Shown piece by piece: positions 4,268-25,154 of a DNA stretch of 40,296 nt. Position 1 is the stretch's first letter; each line of letters opens with the position of its first letter. The position numbers and the translations under genes are program-made. The DNA is from Oscillospiraceae bacterium (GTDB lineage: Bacteria; Bacillota; Clostridia; UBA1381), in assembly GCA_015068965.1 (NCBI GenBank), contig SVJN01000004.1, forward strand, positions 1-40,296, written 5' to 3'. The notes beneath the pieces are model-generated. The model was not told the DNA's origin. It was given only the letters and a program-made list of their open reading frames with translations, and did no database searches.

Positions 4268-5644
4268 TTGATACATAAATATAAACAATTAGGATTAAAC
4301 ATCGTTTTAGATGTCTACAGCGGCAGTGTTCATGTTGTAGACGACACTTTTTATGACATGTTGGATTTTTTCGGTGACTCTTTTGAGAAAAAAGATGAAT
4401 GCCCGACACAAATCCGGGAAAAACTGTTAGAGACATATTCTGACACCCAGATTACAGAAGCATATGAAGAACTTTGCAGTCTTTATAATGATGGACTTAT
4501 CTTTACTGATGACTTGTATGCAGAAATTGCAAAGCATTGGCAGAAAAAAGCAGTTGTCAAGGCACTTTGTCTGCATATTGCTCATGATTGTAATCTGCGT
4601 TGTAAATACTGCTTTGCAGACACCGGAGAATTTCACAAAGGTCATCGCAGTATGATGAGTGCAGAGGTCGGGAAAAAAGCAATTGATTTTGTAATTGCAA
4701 ATTCCGGCAGCCGTAAAAACATCGAAATTGACTATTTTGGCGGAGAACCGCTGATGAATTTCGGTGTAGTAAAGGAAATTACAGAATATGCAAAAGAATC
4801 CGGTAAAAAAGCCGGAAAGAATTTCCGCTTTACTATTACCACCAACGGAATTTTATTAAATGATGAGGTAAAGGCATATGTCAATGAAAATATGTCAAAT
4901 GTCGTCTTAAGTCTGGACGGCAAAAAGGAAACCAACGACCGGATGCGTTACCGCGTGGACGGAAGCGGGAGCTATGATACCATTGTTCCAAAATTTATTG
5001 ACCTTGCTGAAAGTCGCAATCAGGACAATTACTATGTTCGTGGCACCTTTACCGCAAAGAATCTTCATTTTTCCGAGGATGTTCTGCACATGGCAGACCT
5101 GGGCTTTAAACAGACCAGCGTCGAGCCGGTTGTTGCTCCCGAAACAGAGGATTATGCCTTAACAGAAGAACATATTCCGGTTGTGTTTGCAGAATATGAA
5201 AAGCTTGCCGAGGAATATGTAAAACGCAGAAAAGAAGGAAAACCGTTCCAATTCTTCCATTTTATGGTAGACCTGGAGCAAGGTCCTTGCGTTATCAAAC
5301 GTCTTTCAGGTTGTGGTGCCGGAAATGAATATCTTGCTGTTACTCCCGACGGTGACCTCTACCCCTGCCACCAGTTTGTAGGAAATGAGGACTATAAAAT
5401 GGGTGATGTTGAACAAGGCATTGTCCGGGAAGATATCCGGGAACTGTTTGAAAAATCCAACGTCTACACAAAACCGACCTGCAAAGACTGTTTTGCAAAA
5501 TTCTATTGCAGTGGCGGTTGTTGTGCAAATGCTGTACAGTTTAACGGAGACATCAACAAACCCTACACACTTGCTTGCGAATTTGAACGAAAGCGTGTAG
5601 AATGTGCAATTGCAATTGAAGCAATTAAAATGCTGGAAGAATAA
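4268..5644 (+). CDS. scfB: SCIFF radical SAM maturase
   Basis: 458 residues. It starts at TTG 4268, 7 bases after AAGGAGA. The N-terminal 80 residues form a peptide-recognition (RRE/PqqD-like) region. The radical SAM domain follows with CNLRCKYC, Cys108, Cys112 and Cys115 being the Cx3Cx2C ligands of the SAM-cleaving [4Fe-4S] cluster, and DYFGGEPLMNF after it. The C-terminal part (about 340-430) is a SPASM domain with auxiliary-cluster cysteines (GCGAGNEY, YPCHQF, CKDCFAKFYCSGGCC). The family installs a thioether link in the SCIFF peptide encoded immediately upstream. The V-ATPase operon starts 29 bases after its stop, so read-through co-transcription is likely. Confidence 0.95.
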   Translation: MIHKYKQLGLNIVLDVYSGSVHVVDDTFYDMLDFFGDSFEKKDECPTQIREKLLETYSDTQITEAYEELCSLYNDGLIFTDDLYAEIAKHWQKKAVVKALCLHIAHDCNLRCKYCFADTGEFHKGHRSMMSAEVGKKAIDFVIANSGSRKNIEIDYFGGEPLMNFGVVKEITEYAKESGKKAGKNFRFTITTNGILLNDEVKAYVNENMSNVVLSLDGKKETNDRMRYRVDGSGSYDTIVPKFIDLAESRNQDNYYVRGTFTAKNLHFSEDVLHMADLGFKQTSVEPVVAPETEDYALTEEHIPVVFAEYEKLAEEYVKRRKEGKPFQFFHFMVDLEQGPCVIKRLSGCGAGNEYLAVTPDGDLYPCHQFVGNEDYKMGDVEQGIVREDIRELFEKSNVYTKPTCKDCFAKFYCSGGCCANAVQFNGDINKPYTLACEFERKRVECAIAIEAIKMLEE

Positions 5645-14373: not shown

Positions 14374-15570
14374 TTAACGAATCATAAGATTCGTTTGATA
14401 CCGCAAATCCCACAGATAATAAAAAATCCCGGAAATAAGCTGACACGCACCGCAAATACCTACAATCAGAACAGATGAAACCGAATCAATCAGCATTCCG
14501 ATGAATGCTCCCGAAATCGCCTGTGCCGCAGTCATAACAATCAGCCGGACAGAGGTGTACATTCCGATATCCTCATAGCCAATAAATTCAGTGATGTAAA
14601 CTGCACCGGCAATATTAATAATATTATAAGCCATTCCGACAAAGAAGTAGATAATACAAAAAACAACCGAACTTCTTCCCAAAAGCATCAATGGAAGCAG
14701 AATAAACATCAGGACACTGCACGCCGCATAAAGCTGAACTGTAGATATTTTTTTTCGTAAAGCCTGATAAACGGAACATCCAACAATAGATGAAACCGAC
14801 AAAATTGTCACCAAAAAACTCAGAACCGATTCATTGGTTGTAATATTCTTCATGCAGATTACTGCAATCACATTCATCAATCCCATGCATAGCCCACGCA
14901 AGAAATTCGGAAGATAAAAGTATACAAAATCCTTTCGCATAAGCTTTGCTAACGTAAATGGATTCTTCTTTTCCTCAATCGGAATATTCTTGATGTGCAT
15001 ACTGTTGTAGAGTCCGAACGATGCAACACAAAATAAAATACTCACAAAAAATCCAACAGCCATAATCCGCCCGAAATCAAACATCAATGTCATAGTAGAA
15101 ATCAACGCACCTGCCGCAATCGATACAACACCGCTCACAATGCCATTGATATTTTCTAAGGATGCATACTCTTTCATATCAACAATCAGATACGGAAGCC
15201 GGTATGAAAGTACGTTGGAAAAGCCAACAAAAGTATTCTGGATACAGCATCCAACCAAAGCCGCACCAAACAACATTTTTACATCAAAGCCGGTCAGAAT
15301 GCTAAAAGGAAGCATTAGAACACAGAAAAAAGCCTGGCAAAGCACCAGAATTGCATAGGTACGCTTTACATCTTTCACCCGATCAGCCACAAAGATATTT
15401 AAAATCATAATCACAACCTGCGCCGCACTCACCGTTGCAGTATAGGCACTGATTTGTGAAACACTCATTCCCCGCTCGGCAAAAAAACTTTGTACAATCC
15501 CGCCTGCCGTAAACATCAAAACAACCGCCATCATTGCCCGGGCAATATAATACTTAACTTGATTTGACAT
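14374..15570 (-). CDS. MFS-type transporter
   Basis: 398 residues from ATG at 15570, chosen because GGAG lies 7 bases upstream; a start at 15582 would lack a site. About 12 hydrophobic segments are seen, with the inter-helix charged loop VADRVKDVKRTYAI (the loop 2-3 MFS motif, here VADRVKD). No substrate-specific motif is recognised. The gene is divergent from an AraC-family regulator (15705), which probably controls it. It could be a sugar, drug or metabolite permease. Confidence 0.75.
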   Translation of the reverse strand: MSNQVKYYIARAMMAVVLMFTAGGIVQSFFAERGMSVSQISAYTATVSAAQVVIMILNIFVADRVKDVKRTYAILVLCQAFFCVLMLPFSILTGFDVKMLFGAALVGCCIQNTFVGFSNVLSYRLPYLIVDMKEYASLENINGIVSGVVSIAAGALISTMTLMFDFGRIMAVGFFVSILFCVASFGLYNSMHIKNIPIEEKKNPFTLAKLMRKDFVYFYLPNFLRGLCMGLMNVIAVICMKNITTNESVLSFLVTILSVSSIVGCSVYQALRKKISTVQLYAACSVLMFILLPLMLLGRSSVVFCIIYFFVGMAYNIINIAGAVYITEFIGYEDIGMYTSVRLIVMTAAQAISGAFIGMLIDSVSSVLIVGICGACQLISGIFYYLWDLRYQTNLMIR

Positions 15571-21019: not shown

Positions 21020-21181
21020 TTAAAGATATAATGCCGCAACTGCCATATATTGTGCCGAAAAAATCAAGGAATCAAACTCCGAATACTCCTTGATCGAATG
21101 CATACCTCCTCCGATTGTTCCGATACCGTCTATGCAGGAAATGCCGCATTCCACGCATACATCAACACGCATTTCCACCAT
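21020..21181 (-). pseudogene. C-terminal remnant of an M20-family peptidase
   Basis: A 53-codon ORF, start ATG 21181, stop 21020-21022, with a perfect AGGAGG site 8 bases upstream. It contains IDGIGTIGGGMHSIKEYSEF followed by DSLIFSAQYMAVAAL, which resembles the last strand, metal-site loop and closing helix of M20 metallopeptidases (glutamate carboxypeptidase/PepT type). About 85% of a normal gene is missing, so it cannot be an active enzyme. It is either a decayed tail left by a deletion or a small translated leader of the YitT gene 34 bases downstream. Confidence 0.65.
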
Positions 21182-21284
21182 AGTTTTATCCTCCTTCTAT
21201 TCTTCGTTCAATCCTAAACAGAATATGAGTAACATACCTCTATTGGAAACATTGTGACCTTAGAAATACTTATTATTCAAACAA

Positions 21285-21313
21285 AGTATACCATATTAAG
21301 AATATCATGTCAA
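21285..21313 (-). promoter_or_regulatory. Strong promoter reading toward the peptidase remnant and YitT gene
   Basis: On the minus strand, TTGACA (21313-21308), a 17-base spacer and TATACT (21290-21285). The leader to the ATG at 21181 is about 95 bases. Confidence 0.8.
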
Positions 21314-21314
21314 C

Positions 21315-21357
21315 AAAAAAAGATGTAAAACAAAGTATCACACTTCATTTTACATCT
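21315..21357 (-). terminator. Terminator, duplicated copy
   Basis: AGATGTAAAA (21321-21330) pairs with TTTTACATCT (21348-21357), with the T-run on the minus strand. It is identical in sequence to the terminator at 23084-23120 and lies just after the remnant stop at 21365. Confidence 0.8.
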
Positions 21358-21506
21358 CTTAATTTTAAATGTCCGTATGAATCACGGTATTGGTTTTTGC
21401 CGATTCAAATGCTGCTTCCATGACCTTCATCACACGAAGCGCCTGCTCCGGCGTAATCTGGAGCGGTGCTGTGTCATCTAATGCATCTATCAACTGCCAG
21501 TGAACC
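21321..21506 (-). repeat. Direct repeat, copy 1 (copy 2 at 23084-23269)
   Basis: 186 bases align without gaps to 23084-23269 at a constant offset of 1763, with about 11 differences (roughly 94% identity). It includes the terminator and the last 47 codons of the dehydrogenase gene. The first 110 bases are almost unchanged, and the differences cluster at the 5' coding side. Confidence 0.92.
21365..21506 (-). pseudogene. Truncated tail of a second Gfo/Idh/MocA dehydrogenase gene
   Basis: The minus strand encodes the last ~47 residues of a protein nearly identical to the C-terminus of the intact dehydrogenase at 23128-24189 (ITPEQALRVMKVMEAAFESA is shared). Most base changes are silent; the replacements are Tyr to His and Gly to Asp. 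That pattern implies the parent copy was under selection before truncation, as in a paralogue or an allele from a related strain. Homology stops abruptly at about 21506, where unrelated sequence begins. There is no start codon or promoter for it. Confidence 0.85.
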
Positions 21507-21516
21507 ATTGAAAAAG

Positions 21517-21528
21517 CAGTCTAACGTC
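21517..21528 (+). repeat. Short direct repeat CAGTCTAACGTC, copy 1
   Basis: Identical to 22274-22285. Including the following bases, 18 of 21 agree (CAGTCTAACGTCnCCAnnTGG). It overlaps the stop codon of the ORF at 21527-22189, so the two copies flank that ORF. Confidence 0.7.
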
Positions 21529-22189
21529 ACCACTTGGTTGCCAATGAATATTTATTATCCGTTTTTTCATCCAAAACGCTCATCAATTTTATATATGCCG
21601 GAGAATATTGTCCAATGCCAAAATCAAATTCTAAGCCATTATTCTCTGTATAAAAAGCCATTGATGTGCCTGAATCGTGAGGCTTGTGCGTATCCAAATA
21701 ATCAAAAGAAAAAAACTGTAATTCACTAAAAAAGTTATCTTTTTTCGTAAAGCCGGAATTTGTTACAGTAATTTCACTGATAAATATCCCCGAAATCAAT
21801 AGAATTAATATTGTTGAAACAATAAAGATATTTAGGCTCTTTTTTGGTTGTGGAAAATTAATATTTTTATTATGCTTTGCTACTAAATACTGTATATATC
21901 GATCTTTTAGAATTTGACATAAAACAAATGGTACTACATAAAATATAATAAAAAAACCAATCATAACCAATAATGTAATTATGACATTTCTTACTCCAAA
22001 CAAATAATGATAATTTAGTTTTGAATCGTAAAAGCCAATTGTATCACAATGATTTGGAACGAAAGATGGCAGGAATAGAATTAATGAGATGATACTAATT
22101 TGATTAAATAGTGTATGCAAGAAAAGTAGCCATCTGAATTTAAGTCTAAAAAATTTTATTTCTTCATAATTATATATAGTCTTATCCAT
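21527..22189 (-). CDS. Unknown three-helix membrane protein
   Basis: 220 residues. Membrane segments lie at about 19-42, 68-98 and 118-140, with a lysine-rich cytoplasmic stretch between the last two (KDRYIQYLVAKHNKN..PQPKKS). A polar, probably external C-terminal domain of about 80 residues follows. I do not recognise the family. The gene is visibly more A/T-rich than its neighbours and sits in a patch bounded by duplicated gene ends, so it was probably acquired. The ribosome binding site AGGAG is 12 bases from the ATG, rather far. With the secreted ORF upstream it may form a two-gene accessory unit. Confidence 0.65.
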   Translation of the reverse strand: MDKTIYNYEEIKFFRLKFRWLLFLHTLFNQISIISLILFLPSFVPNHCDTIGFYDSKLNYHYLFGVRNVIITLLVMIGFFIIFYVVPFVLCQILKDRYIQYLVAKHNKNINFPQPKKSLNIFIVSTILILLISGIFISEITVTNSGFTKKDNFFSELQFFSFDYLDTHKPHDSGTSMAFYTENNGLEFDFGIGQYSPAYIKLMSVLDEKTDNKYSLATKW

Positions 22190-22273
22190 TGTTTTCTAAT
22201 TCTCCTCCCTTACTGCTTATCCAATTGACTAAACCGTGAATCAATATTAATAGATAAAAATTTAATTATTCGA

Positions 22274-22285
22274 CAGTCTAACGTC
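22274..22285 (+). repeat. Short direct repeat CAGTCTAACGTC, copy 2
   Basis: Second copy of the 12-base repeat at 21517-21528, between the two unknown ORFs and 25 bases from the end of the upstream one. Confidence 0.7.
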
Positions 22286-22310
22286 CCCAAATGGCTACTC
22301 ATCCCCGGCA

Positions 22311-22820
22311 TCACTCACACTCTAAATTGCCTCCCCGATTATACAACAAATCATATAATCTGTATTTCGATGTAGGGCAAAGACGACAAGTGTGATAATT
22401 ATGGTGATAGAAGTAATCCCATACTTTGGTTGTATAATTATATTTGGCACCAATGTGGATATCATGGTTTGAATCTGGGTACTGATAAATCAAGAGAATG
22501 TCTCCTGTTTTGTGGATTGTTGTTATGCCTGCCTCTGATATTAATTTTTTTGCTGTCTCGATTGCTTCGGGGACTTCTATAAAATCAGAAAACTGTTCTT
22601 CTCCGCGGATAAAATTATAATAAAAATAAATGTCATTATTTATTTTTGATACACTTTTTGCAAAGTCATCAAAAAGTTTTTTATGTTCAAAGAAAGTGGA
22701 AGCAAATTGTGCTTTGTTCACAAAATCTGGCGGATATCTACTCTCAAACTTATTAAACTGATGTTTGATACTGACAACTTGCAATATTAGAATCAAAAAC
22801 AGAATTATTTTCTTTTTCAT
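22311..22820 (-). CDS. Unknown small secreted or membrane-anchored protein
   Basis: 169 residues from ATG at 22820, chosen for the AAGGAGG site 6 bases upstream; a longer frame to 22880 has no site. A hydrophobic N-terminus (KKKIILFLILILQVVSI, about 2-18) looks like an uncleaved or cleaved signal sequence. The remainder is a small soluble domain with several Tyr/His (KVWDYFYHHNYHTCRLCP) and a TCRLC cysteine pair. No family recognised. A/T-rich like its downstream neighbour, with a stretch of about 250 bases without genes behind it (22881-23127). Confidence 0.65.
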   Translation of the reverse strand: MKKKIILFLILILQVVSIKHQFNKFESRYPPDFVNKAQFASTFFEHKKLFDDFAKSVSKINNDIYFYYNFIRGEEQFSDFIEVPEAIETAKKLISEAGITTIHKTGDILLIYQYPDSNHDIHIGAKYNYTTKVWDYFYHHNYHTCRLCPTSKYRLYDLLYNRGGNLECE

Positions 22821-23078
22821 TGTTTTCCTCCTTATTTTACAACATATTGAGCAATAGGAGAATATCACCTCTATCATCATTATACACGAAAAACAAAATA
22901 TTGTAAATATGAGAATTGGTTGTTTTTATAAAGTAATGCAAAAATTAAAAGGTCATTAACCGGATTTTGAATATGATAATCCCACACAAAGAATGACAAA
23001 TCTATATAATACCATTAAAACTTTATCCGTGAAATGATTGTTCTATAAAAACAAAATTGCATCATTATCTCACAGAGG

Positions 23079-23120
23079 AAAAAAGATGTAAAACAAAGTA
23101 TCACACTTCATTTTACATCT
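23079..23120 (-). terminator. Terminator of the dehydrogenase/isomerase operon
   Basis: AGATGTAAAA (23084-23093) pairs with TTTTACATCT (23111-23120), with a T-run on the minus strand below 23084. It lies 7 bases past the operon's last stop codon. The rest of 22881-23078 shows no gene, RNA or repeat that I can recognise. Confidence 0.85.
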
Positions 23121-23269
23121 CTTAATTTTAAATGTCCGTATGAATCACGGTATTGGTTTTTGCCGATTCAAATGCCGCCTCCATGACCTTCATCACACGA
23201 AGCGCCTGCTCCGGTGTAATCTGGAGCGGTGCAGTACCGTCGAGTGCATCAATCAACTGCCAGTAAACC
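23084..23269 (-). repeat. Direct repeat, copy 2
   Basis: Intact copy of the 186-base repeat (see 21321-21506), being the true 3' end and terminator of the dehydrogenase gene at 23128-24189. Confidence 0.92.
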
Positions 23270-24189
23270 GGATTTAAGTTATCCACAACATCCTCAGGCG
23301 CTGTAATCGGGATAATCTCTACCGAATCCTCGCTTCTGGGTGCCATAGTTTTGGAAGGTCCAACCTTATTCTTTTTAATCTCTGCACCCCAGGTATCTTC
23401 CCTGCTCTTACAACGGATGATCTGACCTTTACTGTCCCATCCGTCAATCTGCAGTGTACCTTCTTTTCCAAGCACATACCATCTCGGATGCTGGATAAAG
23501 TTATTGGTGGAAACCTCTATATGTGCAGTGATACCGTTTGCAAGCTCCATTGTCATGTGGAAGTTATCATCCACCTCCGGATAATAGAGACTGTACATTT
23601 TACAATAAACACTTGTCACCTTGGCATCATACATATACATCAGCTGGTCAATCAGATGAACACCCCAGTCAAGCATCATACCGCCGCCCTGTTCCTTGTT
23701 GGTTCTCCACCCCTTCGGAACACCACGGGAGCCTTCTACACGGGACTCAATCACATATACATCCCCTAAAAGTCCTGCTTCTACTGCACGTTTCATTGCA
23801 ATAAAATCCTTGTTCACACGACGGTTCTGGTCGATTGCAAACACCTTGCCGGTTTCTTTTGCCACCTGCATGATTTCTACCAGCTCGTCCGAGGACATGG
23901 TAACCGGCTTTTCGCACAGAACATTCTTGCCTGCACGCAATGCCTCAATTGCATAGTCCTTATGCAAGTCATTCGGAACTGCAATCAAAACCAAATCAAT
24001 TTCCGGGTCATCTAAAATTTCCTGACGGGACGCATAAGTATAAAGACCTACACTTTTTGCATACTCCATCCGTTCCGGATTGATATCATAAACACCCTTG
24101 ATATTGATTCGCTCCAATTCCTTTGACTGGTTGAAATGGTGCGACGCCATACCGCCGAAACCGATAATTGCCACCTGATAAATTTTCAT
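23128..24189 (-). CDS. Gfo/Idh/MocA-family NAD(P)-dependent dehydrogenase
   Basis: 353 residues from ATG at 24189. The Rossmann motif GFGGMA lies at 10-15 and the family EKP motif at 93-95 (the lysine is catalytically important), followed by the C-terminal beta-sheet substrate domain (about 125-340, with GGGMMLDWGVHLIDQ, where the Asp and His of DxxxH are the usual active-site pair). These enzymes oxidise a hydroxyl of a sugar, sugar acid or cyclitol. Its ATG overlaps the stop of the isomerase-like gene by one base, so they are co-translated. Last gene of the operon. Its 3' end is duplicated at 21365-21506. Confidence 0.9.
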   Translation of the reverse strand: MKIYQVAIIGFGGMASHHFNQSKELERINIKGVYDINPERMEYAKSVGLYTYASRQEILDDPEIDLVLIAVPNDLHKDYAIEALRAGKNVLCEKPVTMSSDELVEIMQVAKETGKVFAIDQNRRVNKDFIAMKRAVEAGLLGDVYVIESRVEGSRGVPKGWRTNKEQGGGMMLDWGVHLIDQLMYMYDAKVTSVYCKMYSLYYPEVDDNFHMTMELANGITAHIEVSTNNFIQHPRWYVLGKEGTLQIDGWDSKGQIIRCKSREDTWGAEIKKNKVGPSKTMAPRSEDSVEIIPITAPEDVVDNLNPVYWQLIDALDGTAPLQITPEQALRVMKVMEAAFESAKTNTVIHTDI

Positions 24190-25154
24190 TATGCCCACCA
24201 CATTTCTCCTGCATTTTCGTAAATCAAAACATTTTTCAAGAAAGAAATTGCCTTTTCAAGACCTTCCTTCGGGGACATTAAACCGTCCTCATGCTCGATG
24301 CTGATTGCACCGTCATAGCCGATTGTTTTCAAGGTGCTGATGATATCGTTCCAGACCTTTGCATCATGACCGTAGCCAACAGTACGGAATACCCAGGAAC
24401 GGTTCATAATATCGCCATAGCCCTTATTATCTAAAACACCATTGACCGCACAGTTACGCTCGTCAATTCTGGTATCCTTTGCATGGAAGTGGTAAATTGC
24501 ACCTTCCAGAGCCTTGATTGCCGCAACCGGATCAATGCCCTGCCAGAACAGATGGCTCGGGTCAAAGTTTGCACCAATGATATCACCAACTGCCGCACGC
24601 AAACGGAGCAAGGTTTCCGGATTATAAACAACAAAGCCCGGATGCATTTCAAATGCAATCTTGGAAATGCTGTGTGCTTTTGCAAATTCTGCCATATTTT
24701 TCCAATAAGGAATTACCTTTTCGTTCCATTGCCAATCTAAAATCTTTCCAAAATCATCCGGCCAGGGACAGGTAACCCAGTTCGGATACAGAGAATTTTC
24801 ACAATCACCCGGACATCCTGCAAAGCCTATTACAGTATCCACGCCAAGTGCTTCTGCGGCTAAAATTGCATTTTTAAATTCCTGATCAAATTTTTCTGCA
24901 ATTTCCTTTTGCGGATGCAACGGATTTCCGTGACAACTGATTGCTGAAATTTCCAAATGATGCTTTGCAAGCAATGCCTTGTAAGCTTCTACATTTTTTG
25001 CATCCTTTAAAAGCTCTTCCGGCTTTAAGTGATTATCCCCCGGAAAACCTCCTGCACCAATTTCGATGGTGTCAACTCCAAGGCTTTCTAAATATGCCAA
25101 TGCTTCTTCAAAACCCATACTGTTTAAAACCGGGTTCATTACGCTTAATTTCAT
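24189..25154 (-). CDS. Sugar phosphate isomerase/epimerase-like TIM barrel
   Basis: 321 residues from ATG at 25154, 8 bases after AAAGGTGG. AP-endonuclease-2-like xylose isomerase fold. Likely metal ligands lie at the strand ends (FEMHPG, NFDPSHLFWQG, YHFHAKDTRID, SIEHEDG). The family includes isomerases, epimerases and 3-keto-sugar processing enzymes; the exact reaction cannot be told. The close pairing with a Gfo/Idh/MocA dehydrogenase suggests that one enzyme makes a keto-sugar and the other rearranges or cleaves it. Confidence 0.88.
   Translation of the reverse strand: MKLSVMNPVLNSMGFEEALAYLESLGVDTIEIGAGGFPGDNHLKPEELLKDAKNVEAYKALLAKHHLEISAISCHGNPLHPQKEIAEKFDQEFKNAILAAEALGVDTVIGFAGCPGDCENSLYPNWVTCPWPDDFGKILDWQWNEKVIPYWKNMAEFAKAHSISKIAFEMHPGFVVYNPETLLRLRAAVGDIIGANFDPSHLFWQGIDPVAAIKALEGAIYHFHAKDTRIDERNCAVNGVLDNKGYGDIMNRSWVFRTVGYGHDAKVWNDIISTLKTIGYDGAISIEHEDGLMSPKEGLEKAISFLKNVLIYENAGEMWWA

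Follow-up and report, generated by a model that had tools for sequence, protein, structure and literature searches.

How did two small A/T-rich genes of no recognizable family come to lie between two copies of the 3' end of one metabolic gene? The question is raised by a locus in an Oscillospiraceae bacterium, within a stretch of 40,296 nucleotides (hereafter the window, that is, the whole stretch of DNA analysed), which is one contig of an incomplete draft assembly of 165 contigs. From the last gene of an operon towards lower coordinates, the locus consists of the following features:

23128..24201, minus strand: intact Gfo/Idh/MocA-family dehydrogenase gene (Pfam GFO_IDH_MocA, E 2e-29; C3 domain, E 6e-30)
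23079..23269, minus strand: right repeat copy, 3' end and terminator hairpin of the intact dehydrogenase gene
22311..22823, minus strand: ORF2, 170 aa from the likely start at 22823 behind the ribosome-binding site AAGGAGG (by inspection), one N-terminal membrane helix, orphan immunity-like
22274..22294, minus strand: REP2, GGGGACGTTAGACTGTC-type repeat, 17 bp past ORF2, between the two ORFs
21527..22189, minus strand: ORF1, 220 aa, three predicted membrane helices, candidate immunity protein of an Rhs-type toxin
21517..21537, minus strand: REP1, degenerate copy of the repeat of REP2 at the left junction, 10 bp from the stub, overlapping the stop codon of ORF1
21316..21506, minus strand: left repeat copy (the stub), displaced dehydrogenase 3' end with terminator, 94% identical to the right copy
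about 21020..21183, minus strand: C-terminal remnant of an M20-family metallo-hydrolase gene (NCBIfam PRK07338, positions 356-394 of 409, E 5e-6)

One dehydrogenase gene, two tails

The dehydrogenase gene closes an operon with two xylose-isomerase-like TIM-barrel genes, and these operon partners are conserved in relatives. Its 3' end is one half of a long direct repeat (21316-21506 and 23079-23269; 191 nt, 94% identical, same orientation, spacing 1763), which is the only long one between positions 15000 and 30000 of the window, the other repeat families there measuring 25-37 nt at 70-80% identity. An earlier note on this DNA, made from the sequence by itself, had described a 186-bp dehydrogenase tail present twice at about 94% identity with mostly silent changes, and the comparison agrees: the two tails (21321-21506 versus 23084-23269) differ at 11 positions, every one in coding sequence, which touch nine codons, seven of them silently and two with replacement (Y313H and G322D, from intact gene to stub). 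The stub has kept its reading frame, with the in-frame tail VHWQLIDALDDTAPLQITPEQ...HTDI and stop.

These differences are not evenly spread. All lie in the gene-side 94 bp, while the remaining 92 bp, with the stop codon and the terminator, are identical; the longest difference-free run has p = 0.005 under random placement, and p = 0.03 when third codon positions alone are considered. The residues at the two replaced positions are Y and G in 18/18 relatives compared, which suggests that constraint on the stub has been lost. Seven silent changes are what would be expected of two strains' versions of a gene, and two replacements what would be expected of a displaced, non-functional tail, so that the pattern as a whole fits two strains' versions followed by some decay of the stub, the terminator half being either of common ancestry or the product of gene conversion. 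Codon preference was also tried as a means of telling the native from the foreign tail, and was set aside, the stub having the commoner codon at five of the seven silent codons and the rarer ATA and ACG at two.

Could the stub simply be what is left of a duplicate? It could be supposed that the dehydrogenase gene was duplicated in tandem with foreign ORFs between the copies, that the downstream copy retained only its last 186 bp, and that conversion preserved the likeness of the terminator halves. This history would leave a complete gene and, in the same orientation, a tail still in frame, and the two replacements at conserved residues agree with decay, but one duplication more is required, together with one more deletion, which must end at the REP-like repeat. 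The clustering also speaks against it, since uniform decay of a plain duplicate predicts changes across the whole stub, its non-coding part included; with all 11 differences on the gene side of the repeat and none in its other half, plain decay of a copy does not describe the stub. Related loci point the same way. In 103 fetched loci with a related dehydrogenase, to which some genomes contribute two, no further copy lies downstream, the second tail matches being paralogs upstream in the same operon. The arrangement that would have told against the earlier note, two full tandem dehydrogenases flanking the ORFs, is thus absent from this set, although the absence is weak evidence, because the nearest related dehydrogenase is only 76% identical in protein, too distant for the empty site to be read from it, and its flanks are unrelated. 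We regard duplication and decay as unlikely.

On the far side of the stub lies the M20-hydrolase remnant, followed by a YitT-family gene. The earlier note had recognized an M20 peptidase tail here, and the NCBIfam match to the C-terminus of an M20 hydrolase bears this out, while the piece, which is very short, has no match in Pfam or the PDB. An extended promoter-like site (TTGACA-17-TATACT, window 21313-21285) sits just past the stub terminator and points to the M20 remnant and the YitT gene.

The insert and its boundaries

The 1.57 kb between the repeat copies are foreign in composition, with 29.6% GC against 41.2% for the window, and form its most A/T-rich stretch of that length. They carry two intact minus-strand ORFs, each with a good ribosome site by inspection. 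ORF2 is listed with a start at 22880, but its likely start is at 22823; a promoter-like site at 22907-22879 matches at 11/12 positions, such matches being no proof of function, and the C-terminus bears a conserved signature (W-Y-Y-H-Y-C ... Y-YD--N). That both ORFs were A/T-rich and of no known family had been noted from the letters, and the searches concur: neither finds a family at a credible score in Pfam, NCBIfam, PHROG or PADLOC, nor a relative among solved structures, and models of each protein alone are too poor for a fold search, that of ORF1 being of low confidence. Other kinds of cargo or attachment were considered and rejected. Neither ORF has relatives in viral contigs or plasmids, as phage or plasmid cargo might; there is no Rfam match for an RNA feature; and the window holds no tRNA gene that could have served as an attachment site.

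The alignment of the two repeat copies breaks at 21506/21507, where the stub begins (at 21506), 10 bp from the repeat motif at 21517-21537. The foreign segment is thus bounded by the 186-bp gene-tail homology at one end and by no homology at the other. Neither ORF, nor the neighbouring YitT gene, is found behind the related dehydrogenase in any of the 103 loci.

A whole gene 3' end with direct repeats on both sides and A/T-rich cargo recalls islands that use such an end as attachment site, and the locus might be the remnant of one whose integrase was later lost. However, no recombinase or integrase is seen among the ORFs of the island, as the earlier note had already remarked, and the gene-side boundary has no identical crossover core, since stub and intact tail already disagree at the fifth base inside it; the perfect identity lies at the opposite end. 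Nor does the gene 3' end look like an insertion hotspot in 24 relatives, in which the downstream genes vary. Without an identical core at the gene-side junction and without an integrase, site-specific integration is disfavoured, and such a remnant seems improbable. One homologous and one non-homologous end, on the other hand, are what homology-facilitated illegitimate recombination would leave, which fits better. Of the integration or recombination at a gene 3' end first proposed in the earlier note, what stands is that foreign DNA recombined there, leaving or making the gene whole and producing a diverged stub, whereas the site-specific variant is disfavoured; likewise, its choice between homologous recombination and the remains of something larger is better answered by homology at one end with an illegitimate join at the other than by a decayed integrase island.

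The same junction bears on a more mundane possibility, namely that two strains' versions of the locus were joined in a draft metagenome contig. The contig does come from an incomplete draft genome, and the tails have diverged as between strains. Against this, the copies lie 1.76 kb apart on one contig, the gene is clean and in frame, and the left junction has no visible long exact overlap on which an assembler could have jumped. A strain-mixing error retains a small probability.

REP-like repeats beside the ORFs

REP1 and REP2, which the earlier note does not mention, are CAGTCTAACGTCMCCAMWTGG-like when read on the plus strand, and copies elsewhere in the genome have the form GTGACAGGGGGACGTCAGACTGTCAC, a palindrome of REP kind. 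With ≤1 mismatch allowed, this genome has 11 places with the core GTGACAGGGGGACG and one with the reversed control; these 11 places fall short of the high copy number typical of the CGTC-type REP family. A CGTC adjoining a short palindromic stem is present in GTGACAGGGGGACGTCAGACTGTCAC on contig C38, and the window copies are degenerate. The GGGGACGTYAGACTG form is found in 0/69 other genomes of the family. A GTCTAAC motif at the ORF ends, which resembles half of an integron attC site, was pursued and dropped: shuffled sequence folds as well as the window copies do, and the cleanest copies of the repeat that bears it read as REP palindromes.

Similar settings occur on other contigs of the genome. 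Beside valS on C38 (L162, G000:C38, 122-3027) stand four small ORFs, in order a protein of 164 aa, one of 377 aa with RCC1 repeats, a DUF6557 protein of 132 aa and a membrane protein of 155 aa, with a GTGACAGGGGGACG-type repeat after each, and on C50 an inverted repeat pair brackets an orphan ORF of 165 aa. On C121 (L164, G000:C121, 961-1512), a perfect 23-bp inverted repeat pair that folds well follows a xylose isomerase-like gene. This pair is succeeded by an orphan ORF of 122-142 aa whose end is the GGGACACAAGGGACG sequence. In two relatives, a Y1 transposase gene is flanked on both sides by inverted GGGGACGG repeats (L137, G056:C124, 1402-2230; L140, G010:C19, 1394-1860), and the protein of L137 matches the model of REP-associated tyrosine transposases (E 1e-16, below the model cut-off).

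Could a REP-associated Y1 transposase, with GGGGACG repeats as its substrate, then have moved the ORFs as gene-plus-repeat units? Such movement would account for a repeat at the junction and after each ORF, for the repeats behind 4/4 ORFs of the C38 array and on both sides of the C50 orphan, and for the similar repeat flanking the REP-type transposase gene of G056. But REPs generally sit downstream of coding regions (PMC3733652), so that this adjacency is expected and placement beside ORFs alone is no proof of movement. The 191-bp repeat would moreover be left unexplained. In this genome a single Y1 transposase gene was found (L165, G000:C88, about 4650-5380), and it has a different flanking repeat, TAGGGAACGAC/TAGGGAACGACCTRYGTGTCGTTCC, of which TAGGGAACGACCTRYGTGTCGTTCC also occurs inside the gene. 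Cassette movement at this locus is thus given little credence. It is more doubtful still, indeed very improbable, that single accessory genes, such as orphan immunity genes, travel throughout this bacterial family as gene-plus-REP cassettes by means of a Y1 REP-type transposase on GGGGACG repeats; if true, these would be a transposase-based counterpart of integron cassettes.

Are the two ORFs immunity genes?

Homologs in related genomes offer a hint of function. In one relative (G008), a homolog of ORF1 shares 43% identity with it across the 70 N-terminal residues, beyond which the homolog is cut short. Its start overlaps, as ATGA, the stop of an Rhs-core protein (Rhs_assc_core, E 1.5e-19). 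On that contig, an Rhs piece that carries an M91-type effector domain comes first, then a small membrane protein, and after it a displaced Rhs C-terminus with the ORF1 homolog behind it; displaced toxin/immunity modules are known to have this layout. From this one truncated homolog, which lies immediately downstream of an Rhs toxin gene and overlaps its end, it is reasonable to regard ORF1 as a candidate orphan immunity gene, a link that the earlier note had missed. A second homolog (G085) lies within a run of small secreted or membrane ORFs and adjoins an apparent IS21 helper gene, not a toxin.

Homologs of ORF2 are found in three genomes (G088, G101 and G122), in arrays of orphan genes of 158-188 aa with no toxin link. 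In G088, a local REP-like repeat, different in sequence, lies 15 bp behind the homolog. Five orphan genes of 158-174 aa stand in tandem just upstream of rpoB in G101, and the ORF2 homolog is among them (L192, G101:C36, 480-3538). This row could be a polyimmunity locus without named families. An immunity role of ORF2 may reasonably be proposed by analogy with ORF1. No known immunity (Imm) family scores above cut-off for either ORF in Pfam or NCBIfam; many immunity families being unnamed, this lowers the claim only somewhat, and the genes of the island are probably immunity genes of the polymorphic-toxin kind.

A possible route of acquisition

Taken together, the reading that we favour, with about as much doubt as confidence, is that a related strain was the source of DNA that recombined with the chromosome, through homology in the dehydrogenase gene at one end and an illegitimate join at its opposite end, and that brought in two orphan small genes which are probably immunity genes. 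The incoming DNA would have paired with the chromosome inside the dehydrogenase gene, and its other end would have been joined illegitimately within the last 186 bp of the resident gene, beside the REP-like repeat. The operon would thereby have retained a whole dehydrogenase gene, whose present tail is most likely the donor's, and the resident tail and terminator would have been pushed about 1.6 kb downstream as the stub. The 92 bp of perfect identity count against this reading in that they need a second step, and later conversion between the two tails could account for the identical terminator halves. The ORFs have their own ribosome sites and a promoter-like site, and may have been kept for protection against toxins of neighbours. 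Homology-facilitated illegitimate recombination has been proposed for immunity-gene arrays with shifted gene 3' ends in Vibrio cholerae (PMC5361080).

Relation to known systems and significance

With the type VI effector-immunity arrays of V. cholerae (PMC5361080) and with displaced Rhs modules, the locus shares small orphan genes behind a homologous anchor and an old gene 3' end shifted downstream; here, however, the anchor is a metabolic dehydrogenase gene rather than a toxin gene, and the island has no toxin part. As in polyimmunity loci (PMC3482391), the small genes are codirectional with no toxin between them, and related genomes hold rows of four or more such genes, but here there are only two, neither in a named Imm family, and REP-like repeats lie between them. 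The repeats recall CGTC-tagged REPs (PMC3733652) in being short CGTC palindromes downstream of genes, sometimes in inverted pairs. The 2013 survey of those elements lists no Firmicutes and no linked transposase (PMC3733652), whereas here the host belongs to the Bacillota, the copy number is low and a similar repeat flanks the Y1 transposase gene of G056.

The island is accordingly a small, instructive case of a known type of event with two unnamed small proteins, and not a new kind of element. It adds two nameless protein families, those of ORF1 and ORF2, which are testable as immunity proteins, and it indicates that a bacterium outside the well-studied Gram-negatives may gain orphan immunity-like genes at an ordinary housekeeping gene, with the sequence of that gene as the anchor.
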